NCBI RefSeq assembly: GCF_036227105.1
Contig: NZ_CP109434.1
Span: forward strand, 2,484,001-2,548,000
DNA length: 64,000 nt
Origin: Amycolatopsis sp. NBC_01488
GTDB taxonomy: Bacteria > Actinomycetota > Actinomycetes > Mycobacteriales > Pseudonocardiaceae
Direction of reading: 5' to 3'
Shown piece by piece: positions 7,396 to 18,937 of this stretch. How positions within the stretch are numbered: the stretch's first letter is position 1; each line of letters opens with the position of its first letter. A program made the position numbers and the translations under genes. The notes under the pieces are model-generated. The model was not told the origin of the DNA and made no database searches. It saw nothing but the letters and a program-made list of their open reading frames with translations.

Positions 7396-8303
7396 GTTTG
7401 CAGGGCAAGGTAGCCGTGGTCACGGGAGCGACCCGGGGCTGCGGACGGGCGATCGCGGTGGAACTGGGCCGCGCGGGCGCGACGGTGTACGTCACCGGCC
7501 GGACGACGCGCGAAACGGCGTCGCCGCTGAAGCGCCCGGAGACGATCGAAGAGACGGGTGAACTGGTCGAGGCGGCGGGCGGTCGCGCGGTGGTCGTCCG
7601 CTGCGACTTCACCTCGGTGTCCGATGTGGACGTCTTGAAGGCACGCATCGAGTCCGAAGTGGACGGAATCGACATCCTGGTCGACGACGTCTGGGGCGGC
7701 GACATGTACTTCCACTTCGACGCGCCGTTCTGGGAGACACCGCTCGAAGACGCGCTGAACCTGACGCACAACGCGCTGGACACCCACCTCATCGCGTTGC
7801 ACAAGCTGCTGCCGCTGGTGGTCGCGCGCCGCGGTCTCGTGATCGAGGTGACCGACGGCGACAACGACGACTACGTCGGCGCGGGCATCCCGTACTACCT
7901 GGCCAAGTGTGGCATCCGCGCGCTCGGCCGGGCTTTGGGCGTGGAGCTGAAGAAGAACGACAGCGTCGGACTCGCCGTGACGCCGGGCTTCCTGCGGTCG
8001 GAGTCGATGCTGGACCACTTCGAGGTCACCGAGGACACCTGGCGCGACGCGGTCGGCAAGCTCGCGCCGGTCGACTTCAAGATCTCCGAGACGCCGTACC
8101 TGCTCGCCCGCGGCGTCGCCGCCCTGGCACAGGATCCGGACGTCGCGCGGTTCGCCGGCCGGACGCTGGCGTCCTGGACGCTGATGAAGGAGTACGACTA
8201 CACCGACGTCGACGGCGACCGCCCGGACTTCGGCCGCTGGCTCACCGAAGTCCGCAACGCGGGCAAGGACCCGGCGACGACTCCGCCGGACGACTACCGC
8301 TAA
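7392..8303 (+). CDS. Short-chain dehydrogenase/reductase
   Basis: A 303-aa SDR with the Rossmann motif T-G-A-T-R-G-C-G near residues 12-19 and a G-R-T-T segment after strand 2 suggesting NADP preference. The active-site region carries Y-Y-L-A-K (Y-x-x-x-K) near residues 168-172. The usual N-A-G motif is replaced by V-D-D-V-W-G-G, as in the DHRS1-like SDR subgroup. It is longer than classical SDRs because of a C-terminal extension. It is coupled to the TetR gene by a 4-nt overlap. Its stop codon overlaps the stop of the convergent response-regulator gene. Substrate unknown. Confidence 0.9.
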   Translation: MSLQGKVAVVTGATRGCGRAIAVELGRAGATVYVTGRTTRETASPLKRPETIEETGELVEAAGGRAVVVRCDFTSVSDVDVLKARIESEVDGIDILVDDVWGGDMYFHFDAPFWETPLEDALNLTHNALDTHLIALHKLLPLVVARRGLVIEVTDGDNDDYVGAGIPYYLAKCGIRALGRALGVELKKNDSVGLAVTPGFLRSESMLDHFEVTEDTWRDAVGKLAPVDFKISETPYLLARGVAALAQDPDVARFAGRTLASWTLMKEYDYTDVDGDRPDFGRWLTEVRNAGKDPATTPPDDYR

Positions 8304-8956
8304 GCGAGGCCGGGGCGGGCGAGACCGGTTTCGTAGGCCAGCACCACGGCCTGCACCCGGTCCCGCAGCTCCAGCTTCGCCAGGATCCGCCCGACGTGCG
8401 TCTTCACCGTCGCCTCGGAGAGGAACAGTGCCTCGGCGATCTCCAGGTTCGACATGCCCTTGGCGATCAGCACGAGCACCTCGCGCTCGCGGTCGGTGAG
8501 CACGTCCAGCTCCGCGGTGTCCCGCATCGGCGCGCCACCGGTGCCGACGAACCGGTCGAGCAGCCTCCGGGTCACCGACGGCGAGACCACCGCGTCGCCC
8601 GAGGCGACCGCCCGCAGCGCCGACACGAGGTGGCCGGGCTGGGTGTCCTTGAGCAGGAACCCGCTCGCGCCGCCCTGCAGCGCCGAGTAGACGTACTCGT
8701 CGAGGTCGAACGTCGTCATCACCAGCACGCGCGCGGTGCCGGCGGCGACGATCCGCTTCGTCGCCTCGACGCCGTCGAGCACCGGCATCCGGACGTCCAT
8801 CAGCACGACGTCGGGGCGCAGCTCCTCGGCCATCTTGATGGCCTGCGCGCCGTCGCCCGCCTCGCCGACGACGTCGATGTCGGCCTGCGCGCCCAGCACC
8901 ATCCGGAACCCGACGCGCATCAGTTCCTGGTCGTCGACGACCACGACACGGATCAC
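8300..8956 (-). CDS. NarL/LuxR-type response regulator
   Basis: A 218-aa regulator with a receiver domain (acidic D9-D10, phospho-acceptor D54 in V-L-M-D-V-R-M-P, and K in L-L-K-D). A LuxR-type HTH follows at about residues 148-205 (L-T-D-R-E-R-E-V-L ... V-K-T-H-V-G-R-I-L-A-K-L). It overlaps the histidine kinase gene by 4 nt, so kinase and regulator form one operon and surely one signalling pair. Targets are not evident from the window; the convergent SDR gene only shares the terminator region. Confidence 0.96.
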   Translation of the reverse strand: MIRVVVVDDQELMRVGFRMVLGAQADIDVVGEAGDGAQAIKMAEELRPDVVLMDVRMPVLDGVEATKRIVAAGTARVLVMTTFDLDEYVYSALQGGASGFLLKDTQPGHLVSALRAVASGDAVVSPSVTRRLLDRFVGTGGAPMRDTAELDVLTDREREVLVLIAKGMSNLEIAEALFLSEATVKTHVGRILAKLELRDRVQAVVLAYETGLARPGLA

Positions 8957-10149
8957 TTGTCCAACCTAACCGGCAGGGCCGCGCGGACCTGCCACCCACC
9001 ACCTGGAGCCGGGCCCACGTCCAGGGTCCCGCCGTACACGTGCGCGCGTTCGCGCATGCCGATCAGGCCGTTGCCGCCCGGGAGCCGCTGCGCGGCACCG
9101 GTCGCGGCCAGCTGCGGGATCCGGCCAGCGCCGTCGTCGGACACCAGCACCTCCACCAGGTCGCCGGTGCGGTGCACCCGCACCGCCGCGGTCGCGCCGC
9201 GGCCGGCGTGCTTGAGCGTGTTCGTCAGCGACTCCTGGACGATCCGGTAGATCCCCAGCGAGACGCCGGCGGGCAGGTCGCCGAGGTCGTCGGTCTCCAG
9301 CTCCACCGGCACGCCGGCGGCGCGCATCCGGTCGGCCAGCTCGGCGAGGGCGTGCGCGTCCGGCTGCGGGACGCGGGGCTCGCCGTCGGCGTCGTCGCTG
9401 CGGAGCACGTCGAGCAGGCGCCGCAGCTCGCCGAGCGCGCCGCGGCCGGTCTCGGAAATCGTTTGCAGGGCCCGTCGGGCGAGTTCCGGGTTGCTCTCGA
9501 TGGCGTACGACGCGCCGTCGGCCTGCACCACCATGACGCTGACCGCGTGCGCGACGACGTCGTGCAGCTCGCGCGCGATCCGCCCGCGCTCCTCGGCCAC
9601 CGCGATCCGGGTGGCCTGGTCCCGTTCGGTCTCGAGCAGGTGCAACCTGGCCTCCACTTCCACGTCGTAGGCGCGCCGGGCCCCGACGAACTCGCCGAGC
9701 GTCCAGCACAGGGCGATGCCGAACACGAGGAACACGATCGCGAGGAGGAGCTCGTCGTCCGGCGGGGCGAACGCCAGCTGCACGGCCGACGAGACGACGA
9801 CCGCGCCGACGAAGATCAGGCCCTGCCGCCGGCCGGCGTAGACGACGACCGAGTAGAGGCTCATCGCCAGCCCGGCGGCGCTGCCGACGCCGAGCATCAG
9901 CGTCGCGTGCACGACGCTGACCACGAGCACGGCGTAGGCCGACCACAGCGGTGACCTTCGCCGGAACACCAGCGGCGTCACCATCGCGATGTTGACCGGC
10001 ACGGCGACGTACCACGGCGGCAGCTCCGGCAACTCGGCGAACTGGTCGGCGACGAACAGCAGCAGGTCGACCAGGCCGAGCAGGACGGCGAGCACCGTGT
10101 CGCCCGCCATGGGGTGGGCGCGCATCCAGAGGCTCAGCCGTCGCACCAC
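8953..10149 (-). CDS. Sensor histidine kinase (HisKA_3 type)
   Basis: A 398-aa membrane kinase. About five hydrophobic segments lie in residues 15-155 with no large extracellular loop. The dimerisation/phosphoacceptor helix carries H196 in A-R-E-L-H-D-V-V-A-H-A, and a HATPase_c domain follows (N box near S-L-T-N-T-L-K-H, then G-x-G-L-x-G-M-R-E-R). It phosphorylates the downstream NarL-type regulator. A TAGTGT box ends 6 nt upstream of the second of two GTG codons, so a leaderless transcript starting at about 10146 is likely. Confidence 0.95.
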   Translation of the reverse strand: MVRRLSLWMRAHPMAGDTVLAVLLGLVDLLLFVADQFAELPELPPWYVAVPVNIAMVTPLVFRRRSPLWSAYAVLVVSVVHATLMLGVGSAAGLAMSLYSVVVYAGRRQGLIFVGAVVVSSAVQLAFAPPDDELLLAIVFLVFGIALCWTLGEFVGARRAYDVEVEARLHLLETERDQATRIAVAEERGRIARELHDVVAHAVSVMVVQADGASYAIESNPELARRALQTISETGRGALGELRRLLDVLRSDDADGEPRVPQPDAHALAELADRMRAAGVPVELETDDLGDLPAGVSLGIYRIVQESLTNTLKHAGRGATAAVRVHRTGDLVEVLVSDDGAGRIPQLAATGAAQRLPGGNGLIGMRERAHVYGGTLDVGPAPGGGWQVRAALPVRLDK

Positions 10150-10275: not shown

Positions 10276-11826
10276 GTGACGTCACCGGAGCAGGGCCGGC
10301 TCGCGGGTCCGCTGTCGATGTCGGTGGCCAACCTGTGTCACCGCCTGCAGTCCCAGGTCTCCGCGCGCACCGCGGCCGGCTTCGCGGAGGTGCTGCGCCG
10401 GCTCGGCGCGCCGCTGCAGGTGGCCGTCGCCGGGCGGATCAAGTCGGGCAAGTCCACGCTGGTCAACGCGTTGATCGGGCGCCGGGTCGCGCCGACCGAC
10501 ATCGGCGAGTGCACGCGACTGGTGACGCGGTTCCAGTACGGCACGGTCGACCGCGTCGAGATCGTCTTCACCGACGGCCGCAAGCAGGTGCTCCCCTTCG
10601 CCGCCGACGGGATGATCCCGGCGGAGCTGGGCGTCGACATCGAGCAGGTGTCGCACATCGAGGCGTACCTGACCAACGCCGTCCTGCAGGGCATGACCGT
10701 GATCGACACCCCCGGCCTCGGCTCGCTCGACGCCGCTTCGGTGTCACGCACCGAGCAGCTGCTGGGCGCCGCGAAGCACGCCAAGGACGACGACGGCTCC
10801 GACGAGCTGGACGACACTTCGCGCAACGCCGTCGCCGGTGCCGAGGCCGTGCTCTACGTCGTCACCCAAGGCGTGCGCGCCGACGACCAGCAGGCCCTCG
10901 CCGCCTTCACCGCGGCCACCGCGAGCCGCGAGGCCGGCCCGGTCAACGCCATCGCCGTGCTGAACAAGGCCGACACCATCGCGCCGGAGTCGGTCGAAGG
11001 CTCCGGCGGCGACGTCTGGAAGGCCGCGACGCTGCTCGCGGAGAAGCAGGCCTCGACGCTGAAGCCGCGCGTCGCCGACGTGCTGCCGGTGATCGGGCTG
11101 ATCGCCGAGTCCGCCGAGTCCGGCAGCTTCACCTCCGCCGACGCCGAGGCGCTGCGGCAGCTCGCCGACCTCGACGACGACGTCCTGCAGACCATGCTGA
11201 TCTCCGCCGACATCTTCACCACCTGGGAGTGCGACGTCCCGTCGGGCACCCGGCTGCGGCTGCTGGAGAAGCTCGACCTGTTCGGCGTCTCGCACGCCGT
11301 CGAGGCGCTCCGCAAGGAACCGGAGATCACGGCGGGTTCGCTGCGGCGTGCGCTGCTCGACGCGTCCGGACTGGAAGCGGTGCGGCAGCGGCTGTCGGTG
11401 GTGTTCGCCGCCCGCGCCGACGGCATCAAGGCGGCCGCGGCGCTGGCGTCGGTCACCGCGCTCGCGCACGCCTCGGGCGACCCGGCCGAGCGCCAGCGCG
11501 TCCACGACGCCATCGAGGTGCTGCTCGCCAAGCCCGAGGCCCACCAGCTGCGGCTGCTGGAAGCCCTGACGCTGGTCGCGTCCGGCGCGGTCGACATGCC
11601 GGAGGACCTGTCGGAGGAGGTGCTGCGGGTCGGCAGCAACGCCGACATCGGCGCTCAGCTGGGCAAACCCGGCGCGCCGCGGCCGGAACTGGCCGCCCAC
11701 GCCCTCGAACGCGCGGGCTGGTGGCGCTCCTTCGCGTCCTTCGGCGCGACGCCCGCGCAGAGCCGCGTCGCGCACGTCGTGCACCGGGCCTACTTCTTGA
11801 TCTGGCAACAGGTCCGCGAGGCCTAG
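10276..11826 (+). CDS. Dynamin-like GTPase A
   Basis: A 516-aa bacterial dynamin-like protein. The GTPase domain shows a P-loop (G-R-I-K-S-G-K-S, residues 53-60), a switch I threonine in G-E-C-T-R-L-V-T, D-T-P-G at 144-147 and N-K-A-D at 230-233. The rest is helical and lacks an obvious TM, like IniA/IniC-type mycobacterial proteins. GTG 10276 is preferred over an upstream ATG because a purine-rich SD (GGAGGG) precedes it and the extra N-terminus looks like noncoding shadow. A second dynamin-like GTPase lies 2.3 kb downstream; such proteins usually act as pairs in membrane remodelling or repair. Confidence 0.9.
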   Translation: MTSPEQGRLAGPLSMSVANLCHRLQSQVSARTAAGFAEVLRRLGAPLQVAVAGRIKSGKSTLVNALIGRRVAPTDIGECTRLVTRFQYGTVDRVEIVFTDGRKQVLPFAADGMIPAELGVDIEQVSHIEAYLTNAVLQGMTVIDTPGLGSLDAASVSRTEQLLGAAKHAKDDDGSDELDDTSRNAVAGAEAVLYVVTQGVRADDQQALAAFTAATASREAGPVNAIAVLNKADTIAPESVEGSGGDVWKAATLLAEKQASTLKPRVADVLPVIGLIAESAESGSFTSADAEALRQLADLDDDVLQTMLISADIFTTWECDVPSGTRLRLLEKLDLFGVSHAVEALRKEPEITAGSLRRALLDASGLEAVRQRLSVVFAARADGIKAAAALASVTALAHASGDPAERQRVHDAIEVLLAKPEAHQLRLLEALTLVASGAVDMPEDLSEEVLRVGSNADIGAQLGKPGAPRPELAAHALERAGWWRSFASFGATPAQSRVAHVVHRAYFLIWQQVREA

Positions 11827-11892
11827 AACCCGAGTTTGTTTCTCCTTGCCGACTTCGCCGGAGCGGCGGCTCTTCCCGCGTACTGTGAAAAC

Positions 11893-12540
11893 GTGCGCCT
11901 TGAAAACACGACATCCTGGCGAGCCGGCTGGAGCAGCGAGAACGAGATCGACGTCGCGCTGTACATCCGTGACGCCCTGGCCCTGTCCGTTTCCGAAGGA
12001 CAGGTGCTGCCGCCGGTGGAGCCGCGGGTTCCGGTGCACGTCCCGCCCGAGATCGACCGCGCGGCCGTCCAGGCGCAGTGGGCCGACTGGTGGGTCGACC
12101 TGCTGGCCTTCCTCCGCAACCGCGAGGACCCCGACCCGCGCAGCCCCCGCTCCCGCTACGGCAGGCCCGCGCTCGCGCAGGGTTCGGCGATGCGGCAGGC
12201 CCTCGAGTTCTTCGGGCCGGCCGCGGCCCGCCACTTCGCCAACGCGCGCGGGCCCGCTCTGCGCGGCGCGGGCGAGCCGTCGGGCGGCACGCCGTGGGCG
12301 CCCGGCTTCTACCGGCGTCAGATCGTGGCCGGCGAGCGGCTCGGCCAGCTGGTCCGCGAGGCCGAAGTCCGGCAGGGCCGGCGCGCCTACCCGTTCCGGC
12401 TGAACGTCATCGAGATCTCCGTCGCCGGCTCGATCTGGCTGCGCACGGCCGAGGACCAGCTGCTCGTCTCGTCCCGGCTCGCCGAAGACGGCCCCGGCCT
12501 CGAAGCCGTGCTCCGCGACGTGATCGACCAGCTCGTCTGA
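11893..12540 (+). CDS. Hypothetical protein in the dynamin cluster
   Basis: A soluble 215-aa protein of no family I recognise. It contains tryptophans clustered early (W-R-A-G-W, Q-W-A-D-W-W), an R-G-P-A-L-R-G-A-G basic stretch and an acidic C-terminal helix (L-E-A-V-L-R-D-V-I-D-Q-L). TACTGT (11881-11886) ends 6 nt before GTG 11893 and no SD is present, so a leaderless start here is preferred over the ATG at 11836, which would overlap the promoter. It lies between dynamin A and a small membrane protein gene. Function unknown. Confidence 0.75.
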   Translation: MRLENTTSWRAGWSSENEIDVALYIRDALALSVSEGQVLPPVEPRVPVHVPPEIDRAAVQAQWADWWVDLLAFLRNREDPDPRSPRSRYGRPALAQGSAMRQALEFFGPAAARHFANARGPALRGAGEPSGGTPWAPGFYRRQIVAGERLGQLVREAEVRQGRRAYPFRLNVIEISVAGSIWLRTAEDQLLVSSRLAEDGPGLEAVLRDVIDQLV

Positions 12541-12585
12541 GCCCCGGCTTTCATAAACCGAGCACGCGGTCTAATAATAAGCGGC

Positions 12586-12978
12586 ATGGAGACGACCGTC
12601 GACGAGCCGTCGTGGCTGCGCACCGCGTCCTGGATCGGCTGCCCGCTGGCCGGCGGCGCGCTCGGCGTGGGCGTCTGGGCCGTCGCCGCGGTCGCCGGCG
12701 GGCTCGTGCTCGGCCTGGTGTTCGCCGTGATCTGGGCGGCCGAGCGCCTGGTCGTGACGGTGTCGCCGACGCGGGTCACGCTGGTCCGCGGCGACCGGAC
12801 GCGGCGCATCGAAGCCGACCTCGAAGCCGTCTACCTGGACGGCAAGGAGCTCGTCCTGCGCACCACCGACGGCCGAGAGATCGCCCGCGAGAAGACCGAC
12901 CTGCGCAACGACGAGCTGGCGCCCGCCTTCGCCCAACACGGCTACCCCTGGCGCGACGAACCCCCGGTTGAGCGATGA
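12586..12978 (+). CDS. YqeB-like small membrane protein
   Basis: A 130-aa protein with two adjacent TM helices (about residues 15-52), then a cytosolic beta-rich PH-like region. It ends in a Q-H-G-Y-P-W-R-D motif, which I recognise from actinobacterial proteins annotated as YqeB family. It is shorter than most of those because it stops soon after this motif. An A/T-rich TAATAAT box lies just before the ATG, consistent with a leaderless transcript. The 4-nt overlap with the following TetR gene implies coupled translation. Function unknown. Confidence 0.8.
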   Translation: METTVDEPSWLRTASWIGCPLAGGALGVGVWAVAAVAGGLVLGLVFAVIWAAERLVVTVSPTRVTLVRGDRTRRIEADLEAVYLDGKELVLRTTDGREIAREKTDLRNDELAPAFAQHGYPWRDEPPVER

Positions 12979-13589
12979 GGACGGTCGACCCGGCCAAGCA
13001 CGCGGCCAAGCGCGCGTCGATCGTCGACGCCGCCGCCGGCTGCTTCGCCGAGAAGGGCTTCGAGCGGACGACGACGGCGGACATCTGCCGGGCCGCGGGC
13101 ATCAGCTCCGGCAGCCTCTTCCACTACTTCCCCAACAAGCGCGCGATCTTCACGGCGATCTTCACCGACGACGCCGTCGAGACGGCCGAACGCCTCGAAA
13201 CCGCGGCGAAGGCGGCGGACCCGTTGGCCGCCCTGCTCGACGTCGTAACCGAGCTGGCCGGGCAGGTCGCACACCCCGCCGTCGTCCGGCTGGTCCTGGA
13301 GGCCGCCGCACAGGCCGCCCGCGACGACGAATTCGCCGAACTGATCCAGCGCAACGACGGCGCACTCCGCGACGGCCTGGCCGTACTGGTCGAGCGGGCC
13401 GCCGACGCCGGGCGGATCGACCCCGGCGTTCCCGCCCGCGCGGCGGCCGGCTGGGTCGCCGGGCTGATCGACGCGATGATTTCGCGGGCCGGCCTCGACC
13501 CGGACCTCGACCTGGCCGCCGAGCAGGCGGTCCTGCGGACGATCCTGGTCCGGTTCCTGCGTCCCGTTCCGCCCCCGGATGACGCCTGA
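12975..13589 (+). CDS. TetR-family regulator
   Basis: A 204-aa protein with a clear TetR HTH (about residues 12-58: F-A-E-K-G-F-E-R-T-T-T-A-D-I-C-R-A-A-G-I-S-S-G-S-L-F-H-Y-F). A helical ligand domain follows. ATG 12975 overlaps the preceding membrane-protein gene by 4 nt. It probably regulates its own small operon; no palindromic operator stands out near 12541-12585. A role in controlling the neighbouring dynamin genes is possible but only inferred from position. Confidence 0.92.
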   Translation: MRTVDPAKHAAKRASIVDAAAGCFAEKGFERTTTADICRAAGISSGSLFHYFPNKRAIFTAIFTDDAVETAERLETAAKAADPLAALLDVVTELAGQVAHPAVVRLVLEAAAQAARDDEFAELIQRNDGALRDGLAVLVERAADAGRIDPGVPARAAAGWVAGLIDAMISRAGLDPDLDLAAEQAVLRTILVRFLRPVPPPDDA

Positions 13590-13628
13590 ATCCGCCAAAC
13601 TGGTGGAATCTGGCGGAACCGGGACGGG

Positions 13629-14117
13629 GTGGTGCGCATGGCGTGGTTTCGCAAGGACGGCTCCGTCGATCCCGACGACACCCCCACCGGTCAGATCGCG
13701 GCCGTCAGCATCACCCGGATCATCGAGGAAGCCGACACCGAACAGGGAACCGACGGCGCGACCGCGGCGTCGGACACCGATGTGCACCCCCTGCAGCAGC
13801 CGGTCGTGTCGGACCTCGGCCGAGCGCTCGCCGATCGGCAGGCGCTGATCCAGATGTGCCTGTACGCGCTGGACCGCGCCCGCAGCGGCGGTGTCGTCGA
13901 ACGCCTCGAAGCGGGCCTCGCCGCGATCGGCGTCCAGGCCCTGCGGCCGGACGGCCAGCGGTTCGACCCGGCCCGCCACGAGGCAGGCGCCGCCATCCCC
14001 ACCGAAGACCCGGCGCTCGACGGCGTCGTCGCCGAAACCGAGGTCACCGGCTTCGCCGACCACGACCGGCTGCTGCGTGCCCCGATCGTCACCGTCTACG
14101 CGAAGAAGAACCCGTGA
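13629..14117 (+). CDS. GrpE-like nucleotide exchange factor-type protein
   Basis: A protein of about 162 aa with an acidic, low-complexity N-terminus, a central helical stretch (D-L-G-R-A-L-A-D-R-Q-A-L-I-Q-M-C-L-Y-A-L-D-R-A) and a beta C-terminus. It ends D-R-L-L-R-A-P-I-V-T-V-Y, which matches the D-R-V-L-R-P-A-x-V-x-V end of GrpE. The long GrpE coiled coil is shortened. GTG 13629 or ATG 13638 may be the start. It overlaps dynamin gene B by 4 nt (GTGA), so the two act together. No Hsp70 gene is present in the window. GrpE assignment is tentative. Confidence 0.65.
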   Translation: MVRMAWFRKDGSVDPDDTPTGQIAAVSITRIIEEADTEQGTDGATAASDTDVHPLQQPVVSDLGRALADRQALIQMCLYALDRARSGGVVERLEAGLAAIGVQALRPDGQRFDPARHEAGAAIPTEDPALDGVVAETEVTGFADHDRLLRAPIVTVYAKKNP

Positions 14118-15952
14118 GCGCACCCACCGCGCCGAGCCTGCCTGCGCAGGTCCAGGCGGCGCGCGACCAGCTGCTGACCCTCCTGCGCGACGCCGACGCG
14201 AGCGCGGCGAAGTGGGTCGAGGAGGTCCGGAAGACCCGGCCGAAGAAGCCGGCGGTGGTGGTCGTCGGCGAGACGAACCGCGGGAAGAGCTCGCTGGTCA
14301 ACGCGCTGCTCGCGACGCCAGGACTGTCCCCTGTGGACGCGGACGTCGCCACCGCGACCTACCTGGTCTTCGACCACGCCGACGTGTGGGGCGCGCAGGC
14401 CTGCTACCCCGGCCAGCTCGCGCCGGTGCCGATCGACCTCGGCCAGCTGATCAACTGGGTCTCCGCGGCGCACGAGCTGCCGCCGGGCCAGATCCCGCCG
14501 CGGTACGTCGAGGTCACCGGGCCGGTACCGCTGCTGACGCGGCTTTCGCTGGTCGACACCCCGGGCGTCGGCGGGCTCGACTCGCTGCACGGCGAGCTCG
14601 CCAAGGAAGCCGCCGCGGGCGCGACCGCGCTGCTGTTCGTCGTCGACGCGTCGGCGCCGTTCACCTCGACCGAGCTGCAGTTCCTGCGCGACGTCGGCGA
14701 GCGCGTCGAGACCGTGGTGTTCGCGCTGACCAAGGTGGACGTGTTCCGCGGCTGGCGCGAGGTCGCCGACGCCGACCGGCAGCTGCTGCGCGAGCACGCG
14801 CCGCGCTTCGCCGACGCGGTGTTCCACCCGGTGTCGGCGCGGATGTTCGAGACCGCGGCGAAGGCGCCCAACGAGCAGATGGCCGCGATGCTGCGGGAGA
14901 AGTCCGGCGTCGCCGCGGTGCAGACGGCGCTGCAGGAGCTGCTCGTCGGCCGCTCGGCGATGCTCGGCGAGGCGAACACGCTGCGTGCACTCTTCAGCGC
15001 GCTCGGCGAGCAGAAGGCCAAGCTGCAGGCCGAAAGCCGGGCGCTGTCCGCGGGCGAGGCCGAGGCCGAGCAGCTGCGCGACCGCCGTGACCAGCTGCAG
15101 GCCGAGCGCCGGACGTCGACCCGCGGCTGGCAGCTGAAGCTGCGCGGCGAGGTGCAGCGCACCCGCGTCGAGGTCCTGCACGAGAGCAGCAGGCAGATGC
15201 GCGACGCGCAGACCCACTTCCGCCAGCTGATCGACGCGGCGAAGCGCGACGAGCTGGCCGCGTTGCCGCAGCAGGTCGACATCGCGTTGCAGACGACGTC
15301 GCAGCGCATCTCGATGCTGCTCTCGCAACGCCTCAACCAGGTCACCAACGTCTCGCTGTCGGAGCTGTTCTCGCCCGAGGAGCTCGACGTCATCCGCGCG
15401 CAGTTCGCCCGGGCCGGCGGCCCGCCAGTGGTACTGCGCCCGCCCGACAAGAAGCCGCCGACGGCCGAGGACAAGCTGCTCGTCTTCATGGGCATCTCGG
15501 GCGGCGTCGGCGCCGGCAAGGTGGCCGCGCTGCCGCTGGCCGGCGTCGCGATCCTCAACCCCGTCGTGCTGCCCGCGACGATCATCATCGGCCTCGGCGC
15601 CGGCTGGTGGATGGCCCGCACGCGCAAGCACGCGGCCGACAAGCAGCACATGAAGCAGTGGCTGGTCGAGGCCATCGCGGACGCGCGGTCGATGCTCGAC
15701 CAGCTCGTCGCCGAGCAGCTCATCGAAGCCGAGCAGCAGCTGTCGATGGCGCTGGACGAGGCGCTCGGCCGGCGCATCGACGCGATCGAGGCCGAGCTGA
15801 AGGAAGTCGACAAGACGATCAAGATGGGCGCGCAGGAACGCGCCAAGAAGATCGCGATCGTCTCGAAGCGGCTCAAAGAGGTCAGCGAGGGCCGTGAGCG
15901 GGCCGAAGCCTTCCTGACCCGGATCCGGGCACTGCGGGACAAGACGGCCTGA
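14114..15952 (+). CDS. Dynamin-like GTPase B with C-terminal membrane hairpin
   Basis: A 612-aa protein. P-loop G-E-T-N-R-G-K-S (52-59), D-T-P-G-V-G-G from 148 and T-K-V-D at 206-209 define the GTPase. A long coiled coil (about 300-430) follows. Two hydrophobic helices (about 455-500: A-A-L-P-L-A-G-V-A-I-L-N-P-V-V-L-P-A and the next helix) form a membrane hairpin or paddle, and a second coiled coil reaches the C-terminus. This layout fits membrane-fusing bacterial dynamins (DynA/DynB, IniA type). It is translationally coupled to the GrpE-like gene. Confidence 0.92.
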   Translation: MSAPTAPSLPAQVQAARDQLLTLLRDADASAAKWVEEVRKTRPKKPAVVVVGETNRGKSSLVNALLATPGLSPVDADVATATYLVFDHADVWGAQACYPGQLAPVPIDLGQLINWVSAAHELPPGQIPPRYVEVTGPVPLLTRLSLVDTPGVGGLDSLHGELAKEAAAGATALLFVVDASAPFTSTELQFLRDVGERVETVVFALTKVDVFRGWREVADADRQLLREHAPRFADAVFHPVSARMFETAAKAPNEQMAAMLREKSGVAAVQTALQELLVGRSAMLGEANTLRALFSALGEQKAKLQAESRALSAGEAEAEQLRDRRDQLQAERRTSTRGWQLKLRGEVQRTRVEVLHESSRQMRDAQTHFRQLIDAAKRDELAALPQQVDIALQTTSQRISMLLSQRLNQVTNVSLSELFSPEELDVIRAQFARAGGPPVVLRPPDKKPPTAEDKLLVFMGISGGVGAGKVAALPLAGVAILNPVVLPATIIIGLGAGWWMARTRKHAADKQHMKQWLVEAIADARSMLDQLVAEQLIEAEQQLSMALDEALGRRIDAIEAELKEVDKTIKMGAQERAKKIAIVSKRLKEVSEGRERAEAFLTRIRALRDKTA

Positions 15953-15964
15953 GCACCCGTCCGG

Positions 15965-15994
15965 TTGTGGAGCGGAACCGAACGGGCCTACGGT
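15965..15994 (+). promoter_or_regulatory. Promoter of the Asp-rich protein gene
   Basis: TTGTGG (15965-15970), an 18-nt spacer and TACGGT (15989-15994) precede a leader of about 55 nt that ends in an AAGGGGG Shine-Dalgarno. Confidence 0.45.
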
Positions 15995-16056
15995 GAGTCG
16001 TACCCTCCGACAGCAGGTCAGAGACGGCATCATCCGGTTCTAAGGGGGCAGTTCCC

Positions 16057-16767
16057 ATGTGGGTCGACGAGAGCGGCGGCAGCGACACCGATGCCAGCGG
16101 CACGGAGGCGATGACCGTCCACGTCGACGGCCAGGAGTACCAGGCCGAGGTCAACTACGACCTGAACCAGGACGGCGTCAACGACACCGCGATCGTCGAG
16201 CACGACGACGGCACCGCCCAGGCGTTCACCGACACGAACCACGACGGTCAGGCCGACCAGTACACCGTGCTGGACGACTCCGGGCACGTCGTCGAGCAGG
16301 CCGTCTACGACGAGGCCAGCGGCGAATGGGTGCAGAGCGGCCACGGCGGCCACGACGACTCCGGCACCAGCGGTCACGACGACAGCTCCGGCGGCCACAT
16401 CCACGCGGACATGCCGGACGGCGAGGTCGACGCGGGCGCCGCGACGATCGACACCGACCACGACGGGCACAACGACACCGCCATCGTCGAGACGAAGAGC
16501 GGCGGCACGATCGCCTTCACCGACAAGGACGGCGACGGCGAAGCCGACATCGCGGTCCAGACCGAATCGGACGGCACGACCACGACGTTCGAGCACACCG
16601 GAGCCGGTCAGTGGACCGAGGTCTCCAGTGGACTGACGGACTCCGGCAGCGACCAGCAGCTCGGCGACCCGGCCGACGACGCGGCGTGGGGCGCGGCCGG
16701 AACGCAGACGCTCGAGGGCGTCGCACGGATCGACTCCGGCACCGGGCAGTGGATCTCCCCCAACTGA
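16057..16767 (+). CDS. Asp-rich repeat protein with D-x-N/D-x-D-G motifs
   Basis: A 236-aa, strongly acidic protein without signal peptide or TM. Two copies of a block of about 45 residues each carry two calcium-loop-like motifs (D-L-N-Q-D-G-V-N-D and D-T-N-H-D-G-Q-A-D; D-T-D-H-D-G-H-N-D and D-K-D-G-D-G-E-A-D). A Gly/His/Asp/Ser-rich linker joins the blocks. The motifs resemble EF-hand-like or thrombospondin type-3 loops, usually found outside cells. SD AAGGGGG sits 9 nt before ATG. It follows dynamin B on the same strand, with its own promoter and a strong terminator. I believe related actinobacterial proteins are listed as DUF6802, but this is from memory. Confidence 0.85.
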   Translation: MWVDESGGSDTDASGTEAMTVHVDGQEYQAEVNYDLNQDGVNDTAIVEHDDGTAQAFTDTNHDGQADQYTVLDDSGHVVEQAVYDEASGEWVQSGHGGHDDSGTSGHDDSSGGHIHADMPDGEVDAGAATIDTDHDGHNDTAIVETKSGGTIAFTDKDGDGEADIAVQTESDGTTTTFEHTGAGQWTEVSSGLTDSGSDQQLGDPADDAAWGAAGTQTLEGVARIDSGTGQWISPN

Positions 16768-16788
16768 AAGTAACCCAGGTCACAGTTT

Positions 16789-16818
16789 GAAAGCCCGGTG
16801 CGCGAGCGCCGGGCTTTC
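16789..16818 (+). terminator. Rho-independent terminator of the dynamin cluster
   Basis: Perfect 10-bp stem GAAAGCCCGG / CCGGGCTTTC with a 10-nt loop, followed by TT. It ends the Asp-rich protein transcript. Confidence 0.88.
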
Positions 16819-16853
16819 TTCATGTCTTCAATGAAAACAACCTGGTCACGGGC

Positions 16854-16867
16854 GTGATCGCGGTCAC
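16854..16867. promoter_or_regulatory. Candidate CRP/GlxR-type site upstream of pckG
   Basis: GTGATCGCGGTCAC fits the CRP-family half-site pattern GTGA-N6-TCAC. It is 250 nt upstream of the pckG start, in the only intergenic space available for its promoter. cAMP-linked control of gluconeogenesis is a reasonable expectation for a pckG gene. Confidence 0.45.
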
Positions 16868-17000
16868 CGGAAGATTTACTGCGAATGCACCGTTCCGGTG
16901 ACGTCTGAATCGATTCCCTTATCGTTCTTGTGAGAGAACGTACACGTCAGCTATCGGTTACCTGCCGGTCATGCGGCTACTCTCGAGGAATCCCAAACCA

Positions 17001-17089
17001 CGCACACCGGTTCGCCAGCCGGTGTGCGAAGCCATTCGGTCGCCGGCAATGGAGCCCGCGCCGGGACAGCGTCGTTCCGGTGCGGGCTC
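17001..17089 (+). promoter_or_regulatory. Two tandem hairpins in the pckG leader
   Basis: Hairpin 1 (17001-17028) is a perfect 10-bp stem CGCACACCGG / CCGGTGTGCG with an 8-nt loop. Hairpin 2 (17052-17089) has a 15-bp stem, GAGCCCGC... paired with ...GCGGGCTC, including two G-T wobbles, and is followed by ATTT. It ends 27 nt before the ATG. The second looks like an intrinsic terminator inside the leader, so attenuation is possible. The rest of 16819-17116 holds the CRP-like site and no clear gene. Confidence 0.5.
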
Positions 17090-17116
17090 ATTTGTCGTCG
17101 GAAGTCAGGAGTAGAG

Positions 17117-18937
17117 ATGACCGCAGTCGCCATCCCCGGACTGGACACCGCGCCGACGACGCACAGTGGCGTGCTGTCCTTCGTCCGGGAGGTCGCCGAG
17201 CTGACCACCCCGGACCGCGTGGTGTGGGTCGACGGGTCTGACGAAGAAGCCGCCCGGATCAACCAGGAGCTGGTCGAGGCCGGCACGTTCGTGCAGCTCA
17301 AGTCGAAGCCCAACTCCTTCTGGGCCACTTCCGACCCGAACGACGTCGCCCGCGTGGAAGACCGGACCTTCATCTGCTCGGAGCGTCCTGAGGACGCCGG
17401 CCCCACCAACAACTGGATGGACCCGGCCGAGATGAAGGCCACCATGACCGAGCTCTTCCGGGGCTCGATGCGCGGCCGCACGATGTACGTCATCCCCTTC
17501 TGCATGGGTCCCCTCGCCGACGAGAATCCCAAGCTGGGTATCGAAATCACCGATTTCGCCTACGTCGTCGCTTCGATGCGCGTGATGACCCGCGCGGGCA
17601 GGGCGGCCCTCGACAAGTTCGTCGCGCCGGACGGCAGCGAGCGCGAATTCGTGCCCGCGCTGCACTCCGTCGGCAAGCCGCTGGAACCGGGTGAGAAGGA
17701 CGTTTCCTGGCCCTGCAACACGACGAAGTACATTTCGCACTTCCCCGAAGAGCGCGCGATCTGGAGCTACGGCTCGGGATACGGCGGCAACTCGCTGCTG
17801 GGCAAGAAGTGCTACTCGCTGCGCATCGCCTCGGTGATGGCGCGCGACGAGGGCTGGCTCGCCGAGCACATGCTGATCCTCAAGCTGATCTCGCCCGAGG
17901 ACAAGGTCCACTACGTCGCGGCCGCGTTCCCGAGCGCCTGCGGCAAGACCAACCTCGCCATGCTGCAGCCGACCATCCCGGGCTGGCGCGCCGAGACCCT
18001 CGGCGACGACATCGCCTGGATGCGCTTCGGCGAGGATGGCCGCCTCTACGCGGTCAACCCCGAGTTCGGCTTCTTCGGCGTCGCGCCGGGCACCGACTGG
18101 CACACCAACCCGAACGCGATGCGCACGATCGAGAAGGGCAACACGGTCTTCACGAACGTCGCCCTGACCGACGACGGCGACATCTGGTGGGAAGGCATGG
18201 AGAACAAGCCCGCCCACGCCACGTCGTGGAAGCACGAGGACTGGACGCCGGAGTCCACGGAGAAGGCCGCCCACCCGAACTCGCGCTACTGCACGCCGAT
18301 GTCGCAGTGCCCGATCCTCGCGCCGGAGTGGGACGACCCGAAGGGCGTGCCGATCTCGGCGATCCTGTTCGGCGGCCGCCGCAAGACGACGGTGCCGCTG
18401 GTCAACGAGGCCCGCGACTGGCAGCACGGCGTGTTCATGGGCGCCACGATGTCGTCGGAAACCACCGCTGCGGCAGCCGGCGCGGTCGGCAACGTGCGGC
18501 GCGACCCGATGGCGATGCTGCCGTTCCTCGGCTACCACGCCGGTGACTACTTCAAGCACTGGCTGACCCTGGGCAAGAACGCCGACGCGAACAAGCTGCC
18601 GAAGATCTTCTACGTCAACTGGTTCCGCCGCGGCGACGACGGCCGCTTCCTGTGGCCGGGCTTCGGCGAGAACTCGCGGATCCTCAAGTGGGTCGTCGAG
18701 CGCGTCGAGGGTCGCGGCAACGCCGTCGAGACGCCGGTCGGCTTCGTGCCGCGGGCCGAGGACCTCGACACCGAGGGCCTCACCGAGCCGATCGAGGACA
18801 TCCAGGCCGCCCTGGACGTCAAGCCCGAGGAGTGGCGCGAGGAGCTACCGCTCATCGAGGAGTGGTTCGCGAAGATCGGCGAGGTCCCGACCTCGCTGCG
18901 TGACGAGCTCGACGCGCTGGCCCAGCGCCTCGGCTGA
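17117..18937 (+). CDS. pckG: Phosphoenolpyruvate carboxykinase (GTP)
   Basis: Converts oxaloacetate and GTP to PEP, CO2 and GDP, the entry step of gluconeogenesis. The 606-aa protein has the GTP-PEPCK P-loop with the reactive cysteine (F-P-S-A-C-G-K-T-N, about 271-279). It also shows G-D-D-I-A-W-M-R-F for metal binding, F-F-G-V-A-P-G-T, and the guanine-pocket region [22 protein letters not shown] 17117 with SD CAGGAG is preferred; in-frame codons upstream run through the leader hairpins. Length is normal. Control is probably through the CRP-like site and the structured leader. Confidence 0.98.

Follow-up and report, generated by a model that had tools for sequence, protein, structure and literature searches.

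The locus lies in a stretch of 64,000 nucleotides (hereafter the window) of the Amycolatopsis sp. NBC_01488 chromosome, which is ~9.5 Mb in size, and all features described for it are on the plus strand. Two dynamin-like GTPases are encoded, D1 of 516 residues (10276..11826) and D2 of 612 residues (14114..15952). Both match the Pfam family Dynamin_N (E-values of 9.9e-14 and 9.7e-15, respectively) and retain the P-loop, DxPG and NKAD/TKVD motifs, which places them in the dynamin superfamily by their GTPase domain. Hydropathy analysis revealed a hydrophobic hairpin at approximately residues 455-493 of D2 and no hydrophobic segment in D1, in keeping with the initial annotation, which had described a dynamin pair with a membrane hairpin in one member. 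The gene for a GrpE-like protein (13629..14117; PF01025, E 9.2e-8) precedes D2 and shares with it a GTGA stop/start overlap (14114..14117), so that the coupling of this gene to the second dynamin is borne out as well.

Three inserted genes separate D1 from the GrpE-like gene, and many relatives do not have them. They encode an uncharacterised protein of 215 residues without a Pfam match (11893..12540), restricted to part of Amycolatopsis, a YqeB-like bacterial PH-domain membrane protein (12586..12978; PF23494, E 1.9e-35) and a TetR-type regulator (12975..13589; TetR_N, E 2.2e-18), the latter two missing in most relatives; all three probably lie outside the core of the cluster. The core itself, D1-GrpE-D2, is intact in 80/80 Pseudonocardiaceae loci, with D1 present in every one, and the genes for a DUF6802 protein and PEPCK usually come next; PEPCK and a two-component pair are stable neighbours in most of the family. 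A separation of the GrpE-like gene from the dynamin genes, which the initial annotation had named as grounds for doubting the cluster, was seen at none of these loci.

The DUF6802 protein (16057..16767; PF20615, E 2e-9, 37.8 bits against a cut-off of 27) is strongly acidic, as had been noted earlier, with 22% Asp+Glu, only 3 Lys/Arg residues and four D-x-[DN]-x-D-G-x-x-D motifs of the DxNxDG type. The motif residues are invariant or almost so across 47 orthologs, and no hydrophobic segment was found by hydropathy. It is plausible that the conserved Asp-rich loops bind calcium, and the protein is a probable metal-binding accessory. The model of this protein gave only weak OspA-like sheet matches (best Z 6.0), and no fold is claimed for it. 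A promoter of its own had been proposed, however, this is unsupported, since a scan of 13400-17150 gave no sigma-70-like promoter. The proposed terminator fared better in part: a strong, terminator-like RNA hairpin is present at 16789..16818 (minimum free energy of -29.4 kcal/mol and z of -4.8 for the region 16768-16835), but it is not among the terminators of a strict scan.

With regard to the dynamins, D2 resembles the IniA structure 6j72 across residues 40-569 (E 2e-17) and the position of D1 in the tree is IniC-like. The trees group both proteins with loci that have the GrpE-like gene, apart from loci in the order IniA-IniC and from a second locus of the same genome; neither falls within the IniA or IniC clade having that gene order. 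The IniA/IniC kinship suggested initially therefore stands for D2, but the clade is separate from iniBAC, and this is so even within this genome. Judging by their family, D1 and D2 would pair heterotypically at the inner membrane in the manner of IniC/IniA. D2 also matches the PADLOC models for LeoA (1.9e-28) and LeoBC, and actinobacterial GAP1-N2 systems can include HSP70, GrpE and an HSP70 devoid of the peptide-binding domain (PMC7159879), which raises the question of an anti-phage or conflict system comparable to the LeoABC dynamins or to such GTPase-centred systems. We find this improbable, as the steady synteny with PEPCK and the two-component pair does not resemble a mobile defence island, the match to the Leo models may come from dynamin kinship in general, and no effector was seen.

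The GrpE-like protein consists of a short helical part followed by a GrpE beta domain. Its Pfam match is above the cut-off and covers only this C-terminal domain (residues 91-156, profile positions 99-163), and an FDPxxHEA signature aligns with the canonical GrpE of the same genome. Both the Pfam span and this alignment indicate that the long N-terminal dimerising helix, or coiled coil, is absent, and because of this any exchange activity may be altered. On structure prediction, which had been suggested as a check of the GrpE fold, the best matches were all GrpE, although the model is weak overall (mean pLDDT 61). Solved structures of GrpE bound to DnaK, for example 1dkg, show the beta domain touching the ATPase domain of Hsp70.

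An Hsp70 was found neither at the window cluster nor in the sequence flanking the 80 orthologous Pseudonocardiaceae loci (1.67 Mb). The earlier statement that the cluster has no Hsp70 holds at these loci, but not in other families, where a search for a flanking Hsp70-like gene found one at the same cluster in many cases. Among genomes from other families of the order with D1 of the same clade, 22/28 carry an Hsp70-type gene at no more than 10 kb from the cluster, and in a class-wide sample, for which loci were chosen by D1 alone, it is that close in 17/20. These two counts are used in place of a larger tally (57/65), which is biased because many loci of the order had been added once an Hsp70 close by was already known. 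The gene may lie upstream, convergent downstream or inside the cluster, and since its arrangement varies, the linkage is not that of one frozen gene order. The trees of Hsp70, D1 and D2 divide alike, into a clade with the GrpE-like gene and a clade of IniA-IniC order without it. The cluster without a linked Hsp70 was also observed in five genomes of two genera (g45 and g58 of family f15), and several genomes without the GrpE-like gene still have Hsp70.

The Hsp70-type proteins retain the nucleotide-binding motifs, while their homology to DnaK ends at the nucleotide-binding domain (NBD), most linked copies aligning with DnaK only over approximately residues 1-367. In one of them, P0001 (PF00012, E 4.3e-31), the phosphate and adenosine motifs are present and similarity to DnaK stops past the NBD, with no homology to the substrate-binding domain. 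A crude scan detected a strong hydrophobic segment behind the NBD in 39/62 linked copies. The architecture shown by these comparisons is that of a predicted ATPase made up of an NBD without a substrate-binding domain, usually with a membrane anchor.

It may be argued that the GrpE-like protein needs no Hsp70 and that its target is D2, which it would serve as an adaptor or nucleotide-exchange factor; the GTGA coupling to D2, and an adjacency kept in 80/80 loci without a nearby Hsp70, are what one would expect. We nevertheless regard this as unlikely, for an Hsp70-type gene lies in or beside the cluster in other families and the part of the protein that is conserved is the Hsp70-contacting beta domain. 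Moreover, in one genome (locus L197) the gene order is D2, GrpE-like, Hsp70, D1, and here the GTGA overlap joins the GrpE-like gene (PF01025, E 7e-10) to the Hsp70 gene (PF00012, E 5.6e-26) and not to D2. Both roles had been considered in the initial annotation; we favour recruitment of a distant Hsp70 over direct regulation of the GTPase, since many other families have Hsp70-type genes next to the cluster and here nothing but the linkage has been lost.

Three Hsp70-type proteins of the matching clade are encoded elsewhere in this genome, namely Hsp_e (chromosome 1631300-1632541, minus strand), Hsp_c (9283821-9285677, minus strand) and Hsp_d (2998078-2999253, plus strand), ranked in this order as candidate partners. 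Orthologs of Hsp_e occur in 118/122 Pseudonocardiaceae genomes that have the GrpE-like gene, and it is Hsp_c, not Hsp_d, that is the genome's own paralog closest to the linked Hsp70 genes. The choice among the three is a guess, because linkage of Hsp70 to the cluster is lacking here, as in almost the whole of Pseudonocardiaceae. An apparent co-loss of the GrpE-like gene and Hsp70 within the family (122/122 versus 9/28) has a raw Fisher p of ~1e-17, which is inflated because the genomes share ancestry, and on the PEPCK marker tree, with only two Hsp70 losses, it is not significant. As for the housekeeping chaperone, the GrpE fold and the presence of a DnaK in the genome would be compatible with a protein that recruits DnaK to fold or disassemble the dynamins. 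However, the canonical DnaK is already served by its own overlapping grpE and by dnaJ, and the linked Hsp70s lack a substrate-binding domain and fall in a clade apart from DnaK; we consider such recruitment improbable.

Taken as a whole, the cluster resembles a component of a dedicated machine that combines dynamins with Hsp70. We judge it reasonably probable that it is the dynamin and exchange-factor half of an Hsp70-GrpE-dynamin module whose ATPase is encoded in trans here, and genomic context suggests that the GrpE-like protein is the exchange factor of this special Hsp70-type ATPase. Outside Pseudonocardiaceae the ATPase gene lies beside or inside the cluster in most relatives, while in this family it would have moved elsewhere on the chromosome. 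In the proposed mechanism the D1/D2 pair would be governed by the dedicated ATPase, which, anchored in the membrane, would bind and hydrolyse ATP and be reset by the GrpE-like protein; hypothetically, this cycle would set where or when the pair assembles on, or leaves, the stressed envelope membrane. A more far-reaching version is offered tentatively, and we would not expect it to hold in full: the anchored ATPase, which has no substrate-binding domain, would be reset by the truncated GrpE, would directly drive the assembly or disassembly of the pair, and would partner paired dynamins generally throughout Actinomycetes. If true, this would be a bacterial parallel to the eukaryotic action of Hsp70 on membrane coats. 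IniA and IniC are drug-tolerance proteins, and an Hsp70-type ATPase encoded with its exchange factor and paired dynamins offers a concrete, testable regulator of dynamin activation and placement. The case also illustrates that the correct reading of an orphan GrpE-like gene depends on relatives whose partner gene stayed linked.

Amongst known systems, mycobacterial iniBAC also has paired dynamins, and D2 resembles IniA over nearly its full length; the window cluster, however, belongs to a separate clade with reversed gene order and a GrpE-like gene between the dynamins, and has DUF6802 in the stead of IniB. IniB and IniR genes were not found beside it, whereas the second, iniBAC-like locus of this genome (L137) has IniB-like and IniR-like genes. 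Streptomyces DynA/DynB and Campylobacter Cj-DLP1/2 are, like D1/D2, paired dynamin-like proteins and are encoded adjacently, with no mention of an Hsp70 or GrpE partner in the portions of the source consulted (PMC6104087). A literature search for dynamin-GrpE or dynamin-Hsp70 operons surfaced nothing but a dnaK-like gene of M. smegmatis and the GAP1-N2 systems. The latter, predicted to lie near the membrane, resemble the module in combining GTPases with HSP70, GrpE and an HSP70 minus its peptide-binding domain, although the word dynamin is absent from the main text of that paper (PMC7159879); GAP1, FNIII, DnaJ and effector components were not noticed here, in a comparison that did not go component by component. 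The DnaK-GrpE pair differs in having the long GrpE helix and a substrate-binding domain, whereas the module is usually membrane-anchored and linked to dynamins, yet both bring together a GrpE beta domain and an Hsp70 nucleotide-binding domain.

The cluster lies on a chromosome represented by a single contig of 9.5 Mb, of which the window covers positions 2484001-2548000. It comprises two dynamin-like GTPases with intact GTP-binding motifs, D1 (10276-11826) and D2 (14114-15952), both on the forward strand; only D2, a homolog of mycobacterial IniA, carries a hydrophobic hairpin. A GrpE-like gene (13629-14117, forward strand; alternative ATG start at 13638) precedes D2, the stop of the former and the start of the latter being joined by a GTGA overlap. 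Three further forward-strand genes, encoding a 215 aa protein of unknown kind, a YqeB-like PH protein and a TetR regulator, lie between D1 and the GrpE-like gene and are present only in part of Amycolatopsis. An acidic DUF6802 protein (16057-16767) and PEPCK (17117-18937) follow on the same strand, and a histidine kinase and response regulator (8300-10149) are encoded upstream in the opposite direction.

Among 80 loci retrieved by D2 across Pseudonocardiaceae genera, D1, the GrpE-like gene and D2 occur together in all 80, mostly followed by DUF6802 and then PEPCK. The module is real, conserved and little-described. The two-component genes upstream and PEPCK downstream also keep their positions across most of the family. 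In a genome outside the order (L201:2827-7819), D1 (72 % identical), GrpE-like, D2 and DUF6802 genes are found together, possibly through horizontal transfer or a misassigned contig.

The small protein matches the C-terminal part of GrpE in Pfam and NCBIfam, and its orthologs share with the canonical GrpE of the genome an FDPxxHEA region and, further along, G, R and V positions. Although the mean pLDDT of its AlphaFold model is low (60.9), scores are good for the helical segment and several of the strands, and the top seven matches are GrpE chains both in Foldseek, where unrelated folds begin at E 2.4, and in VIA-align (Z up to 6.5). The protein is a truncated GrpE, as the long N-terminal helix is missing.

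The initial annotation described the cluster as having no Hsp70. This holds at the window cluster, and no Hsp70 was found in the 80 Pseudonocardiaceae loci (1.67 Mb), but it fails as a general trait, since in other families of the order an Hsp70-type gene adjoins D1-GrpE-D2. Taking D1 of the same clade as matches over about 200 bits in genome-wide tables, such a gene lies within 10 kb in 22 of 28 order genomes outside Pseudonocardiaceae, and in one of 28 sampled within it (G165, about 5 kb away). Across the class, 17 of 20 loci chosen by D1 matches alone are linked, five of these also having a GrpE-like gene (Pfam check on three). Even at 10 % per locus, the binomial odds of chance linkage are about 1e-14 or lower, related genomes not being independent. 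The arrangements vary, which argues against one frozen ancestral order; in the sharpest case (L197), D2, GrpE-like, Hsp70 and D1 genes run in one direction, and the GrpE-like and Hsp70 genes share a GTGA overlap (8690-8693). At the window cluster, then, the linkage to Hsp70 has been lost locally. Elsewhere, three Hsp70-type genes flank D1-GrpE-D2 in a distant family within the class (L213:5012-18349), and in another family an Hsp70 nucleotide-binding domain (NBD) fused to WD40-like repeats lies directly downstream of a dynamin pair (L144:10797-12860).

The linked Hsp70-type proteins retain the NBD but have no substrate-binding domain. In most, the NBD is followed by a proline-rich linker and a hydrophobic segment, the segment being strong in 39 of 62 linked copies by a crude hydropathy scan. 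Their tree separates clade A, linked to D1-GrpE-D2, from clade B, linked to loci of IniA-IniC order, and the D1 and D2 trees show the same split. Of the paralogs encoded elsewhere in the genome, Hsp_c, Hsp_d (no membrane segment predicted) and Hsp_e belong to clade A and are unlinked to the window cluster; Hsp_b belongs to clade B and lies two genes behind the second dynamin of the genome's own IniA-IniC pair.

Of 150 Pseudonocardiaceae genomes, 122 carry the GrpE-like gene. Every one of these 122 also encodes a clade-A-level Hsp70, and 118 have an Hsp_e ortholog (E below 1e-120). In genera g29 and g30, the Hsp_c query finds a single gene of this kind, and the two members included in the tree group with the Hsp_e clade. 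On these grounds, Hsp_e is the best candidate partner. The GrpE-like gene is absent from the other 28 genomes, and 19 of them have no clade-A-level Hsp70 either; these 19 absences amount to only two losses on the PEPCK tree, and co-loss is therefore suggestive at best.

In the four Asp-rich loops of the acidic protein, the key residues vary little or not at all, which makes metal binding plausible; that it is calcium-responsive, as earlier proposed, is a guess. Family f4 loci encode, after D2, one or two DUF6802 proteins of larger size (L118:14391-16478, L157:11149-14012, L156:14135-17341), and the acidic protein is thus part of the module beyond Pseudonocardiaceae.

The gene linkage, truncated GrpE fold, NBD-only Hsp70 architecture and paired dynamins are shown here; beyond them, we infer that the GrpE-like protein acts as nucleotide-exchange factor for the Hsp70-type ATPase, which would position, assemble or disassemble the dynamins at the inner membrane when the envelope is stressed. 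The membrane-repair role first suggested is likewise a guess. We found no literature treating a dynamin-Hsp70 link as general; the dnaK-like gene of M. smegmatis is a published case bearing on it (PMC5760070).

The genome has other dynamin loci. A third pair (L145:7277-12761, chromosome about 0.69 Mb) has a nearby weak NBD-like gene, divergent and degenerate, with a C-terminal membrane segment and no match in Pfam. The second locus (L137:8742-18649, chromosome 7.84-7.85 Mb) is iniBAC-like, its genes in one direction encoding a LuxR/AAA regulator (IniR-like) and a Gly/Asn/Gln-rich repeat protein (IniB-like), both named by architecture and position, dynamins in IniA-IniC order, an acidic 403 aa protein and Hsp_b, an Hsp70 with a membrane segment. 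The window cluster thus represents a paralog of this system rather than the genome's own iniBAC.
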